Assembly (NCBI GenBank): GCA_012728235.1
Contig: JAAYFL010000028.1
Span: 1-64,000 of the forward strand
From: Synergistaceae bacterium
GTDB taxonomy: Bacteria; Synergistota; Synergistia; Synergistales; Synergistaceae
DNA: 64,000 nucleotides
Reading direction: 5' to 3'
This document shows positions 57,694 through 61,602 of this stretch, piece after piece. Positions within the stretch are counted from its first letter, which is position 1. Each line of letters starts with the position of its first letter. Under the pieces are notes generated by a model. It was not told the DNA's origin. It ran no database searches and saw only the letters and a program-made list of their open reading frames with translations. Position numbers and translations under genes: made by a program.

Positions 57694-57722
57694 TTGACAT
57701 AAAAACATGTAAATAGTATAAG
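57694..57722 (+). promoter_or_regulatory. Strong promoter of the serine-pathway operon
   Basis: Consensus TTGACA (57694-57699), exactly 17 nt, then TATAAG (57717-57722). The next plus-strand start codon is 241 nt downstream, so a long untranslated leader follows. Confidence 0.7.
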
Positions 57723-57963
57723 CTTTGATTTAGTCTTTAACTACTTGTAGCAGAAAGAACCAACAAAATTATGTTTAAAGCATAGCTTTTTGAGAGTTAT
57801 TTTATTTAATTTATATTTTTGACCCTTTATTATATATGTCACAGGTGTAGAATATGTTTTAGTTGGTGCGGCATTAATATTCACCTAAAATATTATGACG
57901 TATATAAAGGGAAAAGATATATATATCTAGATTCTCATATTTATAATAAGGAGGGTTTTATTT
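57723..57963 (+). promoter_or_regulatory. Long unexplained 5' leader of the aminotransferase-serA operon
   Basis: About 240 untranslated nt between a consensus promoter and the first gene. A hairpin can form: TTTTA-GTT-GGTG (57857-57868) with CACCTAAAA (57882-57890), having a 3-nt bulge and a 13-nt loop. No T run follows and no T-box core or riboswitch family is recognised. The SD AAGGAGGG lies just before the ATG. It may be a cis-regulatory RNA for serine/glycine supply; this is inference. Confidence 0.45.
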
Positions 57964-59109
57964 ATGAGAAGGCATTTGTTAACACCCGGACCAGTAGAAT
58001 TATCACATGATGTAATTTTAGCCGGGGCAAAACAGCTAATAGGACATAGAACAGCTGAATTTTCTGATTTATTAAAAAATTTAGAGGTTAAATTAGCAAA
58101 GTTACTAAAATCGGAAGGACCAGTTGTAATTCTTCCTTCTTCCGGAACTGGGGCTCTTGAGTGCTTAATTTTTAATTTTTTAGATAAAGGAGATAAATTC
58201 CTTTCTGTTTCTTGCGGTAATTTTGGTAGCAGATTTCGTAAAATTGGAGAACAAGTAGGTGCTGAAGCTGTTTGTCTGGATATATCCTTAGGATCTTCTC
58301 CTGACCCAGACGTTGTAGTGGATTTTGTAAAACAAAATCCTGAATGTAAGGTTTTACTTCTAACTCAAAATGAAACTTCGACAGGGGTCCTTGTGCCTAT
58401 TAAAGAAATAATTTATGCACTGCCGAAAGAGAACCGGCCCATCATACTTGTTGATGGAGTCAGTTCCGTAGGAGCAATGGAGTGTTACCCAGAAGAATGG
58501 GGTGTAGATGGGCTTGCTACTGCTTCTCAAAAAGGACTGCTTACTCCACCTGGGCTAGGTCTTGTATGGCTATCAAAAAAAGCATGGGACTTTATAGAAA
58601 AAAGAAAATGTATCAGTCATTATTTTGATTTAAAGTTACACAAAAAAAGATTGATTTCAGATATCCCTGATAATCCCTACACTCCCCCAGTATCTTTATT
58701 TTATGCTCTTGATGAAGCCCTAGATTTTATTTTAAATAATGATAAGGAAAAATGGTTTAAGTCACGTATACAATATGCTAGAGCATTTGCAGCGGGAATT
58801 GAAGCGTTAGGATTAGAGCTTTTAGTCCCTAACTCTAACTATCGTTCACCTGGACTTACAGCATTTTCTTCAAAAACTTTGGATTCAGAAAAAATACGGA
58901 AATACCTCAAGGAAATTGGGATAGAAACTGCTGGAGGATTGGGTTCTCTAAAGGGAAATCTTATACGAGTGGCTCATTATAATGATTGTAATTGGCCAGA
59001 GCTTTCTATGATTCTAGGATCATTGTATGCAGCATTAGTTGCTCTTGGAGAAAAACCAAATTCAGATTTTATAACTAAAGCGTTAAATGAATGGAATAAG
59101 GAGAAATAA
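57964..59109 (+). CDS. Class V aminotransferase (serine/alanine-glyoxylate type), probable phosphoserine aminotransferase role
   Basis: PLP enzyme of about 381 residues. TPGPVELSHDVILAG start, SSGTGALECLIFN, DGVSSVGAMECYPEEWGVDG, and the Schiff-base Lys in TASQKGLLTPPGLG. By sequence it belongs with alanine-glyoxylate and serine-pyruvate aminotransferases. No serC is visible and it sits directly before serA, so phosphohydroxypyruvate amination is a plausible role. Alternative: glyoxylate or hydroxypyruvate transamination. Confidence 0.85.
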   Translation: MRRHLLTPGPVELSHDVILAGAKQLIGHRTAEFSDLLKNLEVKLAKLLKSEGPVVILPSSGTGALECLIFNFLDKGDKFLSVSCGNFGSRFRKIGEQVGAEAVCLDISLGSSPDPDVVVDFVKQNPECKVLLLTQNETSTGVLVPIKEIIYALPKENRPIILVDGVSSVGAMECYPEEWGVDGLATASQKGLLTPPGLGLVWLSKKAWDFIEKRKCISHYFDLKLHKKRLISDIPDNPYTPPVSLFYALDEALDFILNNDKEKWFKSRIQYARAFAAGIEALGLELLVPNSNYRSPGLTAFSSKTLDSEKIRKYLKEIGIETAGGLGSLKGNLIRVAHYNDCNWPELSMILGSLYAALVALGEKPNSDFITKALNEWNKEK

Positions 59110-59116
59110 CAATATC

Positions 59117-60763
59117 ATGAACAAAAAATGGAAAATTCTAGTAACTGAAACTATAGGAGAACTAGGTATAAATATATTAAAAGAGGCTCCTGATATTGAA
59201 TTAATTCAAAAAAAATCAATGTCAAAGGAAGAACTAAAGCTTGCTGTTAGTGATATAGACGGCATCCTTACTAGAAGTGGAACAACAATGGATGCAGAAA
59301 TCATAAACGCCACTACAAACCTTAAAGTAATAGGGCGAGCAGGTGTAGGTGTAGACAACATCGATATTCCAGCGGCCAGTCGCAAGGGAGTCATAGTTAT
59401 AAACGCACCGAGTGGAAACACATTGGCAGCGGTAGAATTGACTATTGGTACCATGTTATCAGTAGTTCGTAAAATATCTCAAGCAAATGCATCTGTTCGT
59501 AGAGGTGAATGGACAAGAAGCAAGTTCACGGGCTGTCAACTAAACGGTAAAAAACTTTTAATAATTGGCTTAGGGAGAATTGGCGGAAATGTGGCAACAA
59601 GGTGTCGCGCATTTGGAATGGATATAATAGCTTATGATCCTTATATAACTCAAAAAAGAGCTGATTCCTTAAGAGCTAACCTGATGTCCAATCTTGAAGA
59701 TGCAATAAAAATAGCAGATATAGTAACTATTCATACACCTCTTACAAAAGAAACAAAAAACATGATAAACAAAGAGACATTAAAATTATTTAAACCTGGA
59801 GCATATCTTATAAACTGTGCAAGGGGCGGCATCGTAGATGAAAAAGCTGTGGCGGATGCCGTAAGAAACAAAAACTTAAATGGCTTTGGCACAGATGTTT
59901 TCTCTATAGAACCTCTTGATAGTAATCATCCTTTCTTGAATGAGGAAATCGCAGACAGAGTGCTTCTTACTCCGCATATTGGAGCGAATACTTATGAGGC
60001 ACAATCCGAAGTATCAAGGATTGCTGTAGAAAACATGCTTTCTGTATTACGTGGAGAGCCATATGTTCACGCGGTAAATCTTCCTTTTATTGAACAAGCT
60101 CTCACATTGGAACAAAAAGTATATCTAAATCTAGCCAGAAAGATAGGAGTCTTAGCGGCGAAAGTTGCTGAGGTAAAAGGCAATGCAGTTAAGTGTGTGC
60201 ATTTTAAAATGAGGGGTAATATTTTTGATAAAGAAGAAGGTTATACCGAACAGCTAATGCCCTACACAATTTCTGCTTTGAAAGGTCTACTAGAAGTTAG
60301 TTTAGGCGAAGAGGTAACCTTTATGTTAGCACCAATACTTGCAAAAGATAGAAATATTAATGTAGTTGAAAGTACTGGCGAAGCTCAAACCTATAAAAAT
60401 ACGATTGAAATCGAGCTAGAAACAGAAAAAGAAAGCATTCTATTGATAGGAACAATTACAGAAGAAGGAAGACAGCGCATTGTAAGAGTTAATGACTATT
60501 GGATTGATTTTGTGCCGAATGGGAAAATATTGATGTTCCAAAACTATGATATGCCAGGAGTAATTGGAAAAATAGGTACGCTTTTGGGCGAAGCCGGTGT
60601 AAATATTGCTAACTTTGCTCTTGGACGAAAAAATGAAAGCGGACATGCTTTAGGCGTACTAGAGATAGACGGTGAAGTAGATGATAAATTAATGAACAAA
60701 TTAATAAAAAGCGGTGATTTACTATGGGAAACAACAGTTGATTTTTCAGGAGATATTAAATGA
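59117..60763 (+). CDS. serA: D-3-phosphoglycerate dehydrogenase
   Basis: First step of phosphorylated serine synthesis. Long form, 548 residues: N-terminal substrate domain; Rossmann motif LLIIGLGRIGGNVA; active-site INCARGGIVDE and LTPHIGANTYEA (catalytic His); an intervening domain and a C-terminal ACT domain (about 470-548: MFQNYDMPGVIGKIGTLLGEAGVNIA) that usually gives serine feedback. ATG 59117 follows SD AAGGAG; the upstream ATG 59087 precedes that SD. It overlaps the phosphatase gene by 4 nt (ATGA). Confidence 0.95.
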   Translation: MNKKWKILVTETIGELGINILKEAPDIELIQKKSMSKEELKLAVSDIDGILTRSGTTMDAEIINATTNLKVIGRAGVGVDNIDIPAASRKGVIVINAPSGNTLAAVELTIGTMLSVVRKISQANASVRRGEWTRSKFTGCQLNGKKLLIIGLGRIGGNVATRCRAFGMDIIAYDPYITQKRADSLRANLMSNLEDAIKIADIVTIHTPLTKETKNMINKETLKLFKPGAYLINCARGGIVDEKAVADAVRNKNLNGFGTDVFSIEPLDSNHPFLNEEIADRVLLTPHIGANTYEAQSEVSRIAVENMLSVLRGEPYVHAVNLPFIEQALTLEQKVYLNLARKIGVLAAKVAEVKGNAVKCVHFKMRGNIFDKEEGYTEQLMPYTISALKGLLEVSLGEEVTFMLAPILAKDRNINVVESTGEAQTYKNTIEIELETEKESILLIGTITEEGRQRIVRVNDYWIDFVPNGKILMFQNYDMPGVIGKIGTLLGEAGVNIANFALGRKNESGHALGVLEIDGEVDDKLMNKLIKSGDLLWETTVDFSGDIK

Positions 60764-61416
60764 GATTTTTCATTGTTCGCCACGGAGAAACCGCATGGAA
60801 TACAGAGGGACGTTTTCAGGGACAAATAGACACAGAACTTAATGAAAAAGGTCTTAGTCAGGCTAAATTAGTGGCGCAGAGGCTTTCTGGGAAAAAGTTT
60901 GATGCAATAGTATCGAGTCCTTTAAAAAGAGCTCTTCATACTGCCCGTGAAATAGCTTCTACTACTAATCACAAAGACATTGTTATAGAAAATGATCTTA
61001 TAGAAATTAATCATGGAGATTGGGAAGGGTGTCACGCAGATCAAATAGAAGCTCAATGGGGACATTTATTAAAAAAATGGCACAAAACACCAGAACTTGT
61101 AACAATGCCAGGCGCTGGTGGTGAATCTCTGTGTGATATAACAAAAAGATCTGTAAGTGTAATTAATCAGATAGCTGATATGTACAATGGTGATGTTCTG
61201 CTTGTTTCTCACGATGCCGTAATTAAAGTTTTGTTCTGTTATTGGACAAATTCTCCCGTTTCAAGTTTTTGGAGATTTCAAATACCTAACTGTAGCATTT
61301 CAATTATTGAGATGCCACAATCGGATTCTCTCTTCCCTCCACGTCTACTTCTAATGGGAGATGTTTCTCACTTAGGCAATTCTTTTTCTCAATTGCAAGA
61401 ACAAAAGGGGCTTTAA
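60760..61416 (+). CDS. Histidine-phosphatase superfamily enzyme, candidate phosphoserine phosphatase
   Basis: 218 residues of the cofactor-dependent phosphoglycerate mutase fold. RHGETAWNTEGRFQGQIDTELNEKG carries the catalytic His of the RHG motif; EINHGDWEGC and the distal LLVSHDAVIKVLF (SHD instead of the commoner SHG) complete the site. Coupled to serA by ATGA. In Hydrogenobacter a phosphatase of this fold is a metal-independent phosphoserine phosphatase, so the same role is a good guess. Alternatives: alpha-ribazole or sugar phosphatase. Confidence 0.82.
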   Translation: MRFFIVRHGETAWNTEGRFQGQIDTELNEKGLSQAKLVAQRLSGKKFDAIVSSPLKRALHTAREIASTTNHKDIVIENDLIEINHGDWEGCHADQIEAQWGHLLKKWHKTPELVTMPGAGGESLCDITKRSVSVINQIADMYNGDVLLVSHDAVIKVLFCYWTNSPVSSFWRFQIPNCSISIIEMPQSDSLFPPRLLLMGDVSHLGNSFSQLQEQKGL

Positions 61417-61480
61417 TATATTTTAATTATTTCAACTAAATAATTAAATTTGTCAATCTCCAATACTTATAAATTTAAAT

Positions 61481-61516
61481 AAAAAGCTCTCTATACATAT
61501 GTATAGAGAGCTTTTT
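61481..61516 (+). terminator. Bidirectional terminator after the serine operon
   Basis: Perfect 16-bp stem (61481-61496 with 61501-61516) and an ATAT loop, with A/T runs on both outer sides, so it can stop both the plus-strand operon and the minus-strand tRNA transcript. Confidence 0.95.
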
Positions 61517-61527
61517 TAATTTATGTA

Positions 61528-61602
61528 TGGTGGGCGGTAGAGGATTTGAACCTCTGACTTCTACCATGTCAAGGTAGCGTTCTACCCCTGAACTAACCGC
61601 CC
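61528..61602 (-). tRNA. tRNA-Val (anticodon GAC)
   Basis: On the minus strand: acceptor GGGCGGT from 61602 pairs with ACCGCCC, D arm GTTC/GAAC, anticodon loop TTGACAT giving GAC, T arm AGAGG/CCTCT with TTCAAAT loop, discriminator A and encoded CCA (61530-61528). It reads GUC/GUU codons. Confidence 0.95.

Follow-up and report, generated by a model that had tools for sequence, protein, structure and literature searches.

A three-gene operon of Synergistaceae predicted to encode the phosphorylated serine pathway with substitutes for SerC and SerB

The DNA analyzed here, referred to as the window, comprises 64 kb of contig C28 of a Synergistaceae genome (1.57 Mb, estimated completeness 96%). Within it, three tightly linked genes on the plus strand follow a putative sigma-70-type promoter (TTGACA-17-TATAAG, 57694–57722), which matches the consensus at 11 of 12 positions; sites of this quality number three in total on the plus strand of the window. 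This promoter was missed by the automatic scan because the scan rule requires T at the last position of the −10 element, a rule from which TATAAG escapes. Downstream lies a long leader of about 235–240 nt (57723–57963) with the ribosome-binding site AAGGAGG near its 3′ end, preceding the ATG at 57964. An Rfam search with the leader gave no family match, and thus neither a riboswitch nor a T-box; it might carry unrecognised regulation.

The first gene (57964–59109, plus strand) encodes a class V aminotransferase of the AGXT/serine-glyoxylate type, proposed here as phosphoserine transaminase. It is followed by serA (59117–60763, plus strand), the gene for a long-form 3-phosphoglycerate dehydrogenase with intervening and ACT domains, and by a gene for a histidine phosphatase (60760–61416, plus strand), proposed as metal-independent phosphoserine phosphatase. 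For SerA, the start at 59117 is more likely than the mechanical ORF start at 59087, which would overlap the upstream aminotransferase gene; with the former, the gap between both genes is 7 nt. The serA and phosphatase genes are coupled by an ATGA overlap at 60760. Behind the operon, a symmetrical 16-bp stem forms an intrinsic terminator (61481–61516), which can serve both directions since a convergent tRNA-Val (GAC) gene on the minus strand (61528–61602) faces the operon from its other side. A consensus promoter, three linked genes with ATGA coupling and a 16-bp terminator had all been claimed in a first-pass annotation, and all of them were recovered at the claimed places. As the three-gene order is kept in dozens of related genomes, it is not a product of chance. 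Also the family assignments of this annotation (class V aminotransferase, long SerA with ACT domain, histidine phosphatase) agreed with our profile searches.

SerA passes the phosphoglycerate dehydrogenase equivalog TIGR01327 (569 bits, cut-off 454). Its domains are PF02826, PF00389, PF19304, and PF01842, so that the intervening domain and the ACT domain of a long-form enzyme are both there, and PDB entry 1ygy is matched at 1e-92. Furthermore, the arginine-bearing stretches RSxT and GRAG common to the human and mycobacterial enzymes are kept.

The aminotransferase was assigned by Pfam profile search to PF00266 (103 bits) and stays under every NCBIfam equivalog cut-off. Its nearest solved relatives are serine/alanine-pyruvate/glyoxylate aminotransferases from Pyrococcus and other organisms (best PDB match 2dr1), and the homolog in Prochlorococcus is 34% identical. 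It had been described as something other than the classical serC product, which is borne out by scores far below the cut-offs of the SerC models (TIGR01364/NF003764; 18 bits versus 443.6 and 19.8 bits versus 253). A family profile search revealed no classical SerC among the class V enzymes of the source genome. A second class V aminotransferase (L003) is encoded on contig C157, but it was rejected as partner of SerA because it belongs to a different operon with alanine dehydrogenase and other genes. This operon (C157, 15000–27000; L083) also comprises genes for a sodium/glutamate symporter, Ldh2, a D-2-hydroxyacid dehydrogenase and an ornithine-cyclodeaminase-like protein and possibly represents an amino or hydroxy acid catabolic route.

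In a survey of 61 genomes of the order, an ortholog of the operon aminotransferase was present in 39 (one being a fragment at a contig end) and classical SerC in nine, which fall into at least four separate groups, with no overlap between both sets (Fisher p = 3e-5, to be taken as descriptive because the genomes are related to each other). The aminotransferase genes are linked to serA, and the genomes that carry them lack classical SerC. Orthologs of the phosphatase were found in 37 of the 61 genomes, all of them with long SerA and, where contig ends allow, with both genes adjacent. The complete set of three genes occurs in 34 genomes, and the loci read directly show the order aminotransferase-serA-phosphatase with short gaps or overlaps. 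Exceptions were of several kinds. Four genomes, G001 from the same genus as well as G007, G025, and G033 (loci L096, L097, L099, and L098), have the aminotransferase-serA pair but lack both the phosphatase and SerB; in these, either another enzyme can perform the last step or the step is dispensed with. G044, G053, and G060 have serA and the phosphatase gene without the aminotransferase gene, while serA stands without either neighbor in G002, G006, G024, G026, and G042, with G026 also having SerC. The contig of G017 breaks off within serA. Three loci of Acetomicrobium-type genomes (L075, L076, and L079) carry the serA-phosphatase pair with neither the aminotransferase nor classical SerC.

The phosphatase belongs to the histidine phosphatases (PF00300) and not to the HAD-type SerB family, as had been noted before. 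Its best sequence, profile and fold matches all are the phosphoserine phosphatase of Hydrogenobacter. Among the NCBIfam models, PspA (NF045917) scored best with 157 bits, below the equivalog cut-off of 350. The serA-linked homologs of Veillonella and Chloroflexi, with 180 and 214 bits, respectively, also fail this cut-off, which therefore suits close relatives of PspA only. We describe the operon enzyme as iPSP-like and not as an ortholog of PspA. In a fold search with its AlphaFold model (pLDDT 91), the top three PDB entries were the H. thermophilus phosphoserine phosphatase (TM 0.87–0.93, 1.5 Å; 4ij6/4ij5). The catalytic residues R7, H8, R57, E82, and H151 of the histidine-phosphatase fold are invariant. 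His85 of PspA is reportedly needed for activity with phosphoserine, and we take the equivalent position of the operon enzyme to be the same specificity site. Every serA-linked copy has His at this position, whereas none of the 21 unlinked paralogs does. His is also found there in the cyanobacterial homologs, to which the phosphatase is about 42% identical, and in 80 of 80 loci of a genome scan, whose peptide patterns did not cover this position. In the phylogenetic tree, the His85 group was strongly clustered; the best tree needs two changes, and a single clade was neither established nor rejected (p-AU 0.566).

Ordinary serC and serB genes elsewhere in the source genome would have spoken against the first-pass reading, but neither SerC nor SerB was detected there over cut-off, and SerB (TIGR00338) was found over cut-off in none of the 61 genomes of the order. 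With a genome completeness of 96%, these absences are not absolute. HAD phosphatases are present in the source genome (L014–L017), and although its HAD proteins all stay below the cut-offs of the phosphoserine phosphatase models, one of them may still have phosphoserine activity.

Outside the phylum, the complete three-gene set was detected in a metagenome-assembled genome of Chloroflexi. In Veillonella magna, Megasphaera hutchinsoni, and a Veillonellaceae metagenome-assembled genome, a classical serC (453–467 bits, cut-off 253) lies upstream of serA and the phosphatase gene. The order there is serC-serA-phosphatase, and the aminotransferase gene therefore holds the position of serC. No other single argument speaks as strongly for both functions as this exchange of serC and the aminotransferase gene in front of one serA-phosphatase pair; the exchange can be regarded as a natural experiment tying both substitutes to the pathway. 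In Prochlorococcus and Leptolyngbya, the phosphatase gene was located away from serA in the loci read.

It is very probable that all three steps of the phosphorylated serine pathway are encoded in the operon, with an ordinary first enzyme and two non-orthologous substitutes. The route from 3-phosphoglycerate to serine proposed in the first-pass annotation thereby gains support from gene order, SerC exclusion, the serC exchange, His85, and the predicted fold. Substrates, mechanism, and direction given in the following are predictions from these data. SerA would oxidize 3-phosphoglycerate to 3-phosphohydroxypyruvate, probably under feedback control via its ACT domain. In the role of SerC, the class V aminotransferase would form O-phosphoserine, from which the histidine phosphatase, in the role of HAD-type SerB, would remove the phosphate. 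In the latter reaction, His8 is expected to form the phosphohistidine and Glu82 probably donates the proton, while His85 would contribute to substrate specificity.

A non-phosphorylated route via glycerate would assign the same genes differently: the phosphatase would act on phosphoglycerate, the dehydrogenase on glycerate, and the aminotransferase would convert hydroxypyruvate and serine into each other in order to make or degrade serine. The names of the nearest solved relatives of the aminotransferase fit this route, as do the varied substrates of histidine phosphatases. However, SerA is clearly a phosphoglycerate dehydrogenase, having an ACT domain as well as the RSxT and GRAG stretches, classical SerC takes the place of the aminotransferase in Veillonellaceae, and the phosphatase bears the His85 signature. 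On these three grounds the glycerate route was rejected as improbable. Still less probable is a function of the third gene product as alpha-ribazole phosphatase (CobC), or as a general phosphatase located behind serA by chance. Its score with the CobC model (TIGR03162, 149.7 bits) comes close to the cut-off of 162.9 without reaching it and is nearly tied with the PspA score. Yet the source genome contains a separate CobC-like paralog (L084) between genes for CobD/CbiB, an aminotransferase and CobO, and the presence of this paralog in a cobalamin operon weakens the alpha-ribazole reading of the operon enzyme. In addition, the phosphatase accompanies serA in 37 of 37 genomes, and His85 is confined to the serA-linked group when compared with the unlinked paralogs, so that this explanation was rejected on the serA context, the paralog, and His85. 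A role in the riboflavin pathway like that of Aquifex HFP is highly improbable and was rejected. Among solved folds, HFP is closest to the phosphoserine phosphatase of Hydrogenobacter, and it illustrates that an iPSP-like fold can serve another biosynthetic substrate (PMC12051542); in its favor, HFP (9mmh) ranked seventh in the fold search with the operon enzyme. Against such a role stand the identities of the operon enzyme, 22% to HFP versus 34–35% to the phosphoserine phosphatase, and its consistent linkage to serA.

Serine hydroxymethyltransferase (SHMT, PF00464) was not found over cut-off in the source genome (G000) and in 23 others of the order, while it was present in 37 of the 61 genomes and in 14 of 14 controls. 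Single-contig genomes with the operon but without SHMT are G015, G029, G049, and G057. In a genome without evident SHMT, no de novo route to serine other than the operon would be evident. The source genome could derive its glycine from threonine, as it has a GntG-family/threonine-aldolase-like gene (L087, 4821–5855). That a lineage of Synergistota has a two-substitute serine operon as sole serine source in its SHMT-less members, the source genome included, with glycine drawn from threonine, is a tentative idea to which we give somewhat less than even chances; if true, serine, glycine, and one-carbon metabolism would be connected in an unusual way. For practical purposes, the operon provides a gene set with which serine synthesis can be annotated throughout Synergistota; the standard models for SerC and SerB find nothing there and would predict a false serine auxotrophy. 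By the His85 signature, likely phosphoserine phosphatases can be told apart from other histidine phosphatases.

Several known systems resemble the operon in part. The phosphatase is like PspA/iPSP1 of Hydrogenobacter thermophilus (4ij5, 4ij6) in its fold, the catalytic residues, His85, and an HLG stretch near the C-terminus, but differs by an identity of about 34–35%, below the equivalog cut-off, and by DAV instead of TVP after the second catalytic His. In Synechocystis, according to two reports, Sll1559 is a non-SerC phosphoserine transaminase (PMC9997740; Klemke et al. 2015) and Slr1124 (slr1124) a phosphoglycerate-mutase-like phosphoserine phosphatase (PMC12077085; Klemke et al. 2015). The Synergistaceae operon likewise combines a non-SerC class V transaminase with a phosphatase of this type, a likeness drawn via the homologs of Prochlorococcus and Leptolyngbya; in contrast to the cyanobacterial loci read, in which the phosphatase gene is not near serA, its genes are all in one operon. 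The Veillonella/Megasphaera operon (L172, L164, and L166) has a homologous serA, the same His85 phosphatase and the same order, but classical SerC where a class V aminotransferase is found here. In gut genomes, PF00266 (SerC2, SerC3) and PF00300 (SerB2) substitutes were predicted in 2022, with partial operons (PMC9026213). By description, the two Synergistaceae genes are like SerC3 and SerB2, a PF00266 substitute for SerC in a serA operon and a PF00300 substitute for SerB near serA. That study reports them separately, SerC3 with serA or serA-serB1 and SerB2 with serA in Peptoniphilus, and its text does not describe both in one operon; nor was the union of both substitutes in one operon across Synergistota found in the literature searched. 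Each substitution has thus already been published and the newness is modest; what is new is the presence of both substitutes in one operon across Synergistota, together with the SHMT-less setting.
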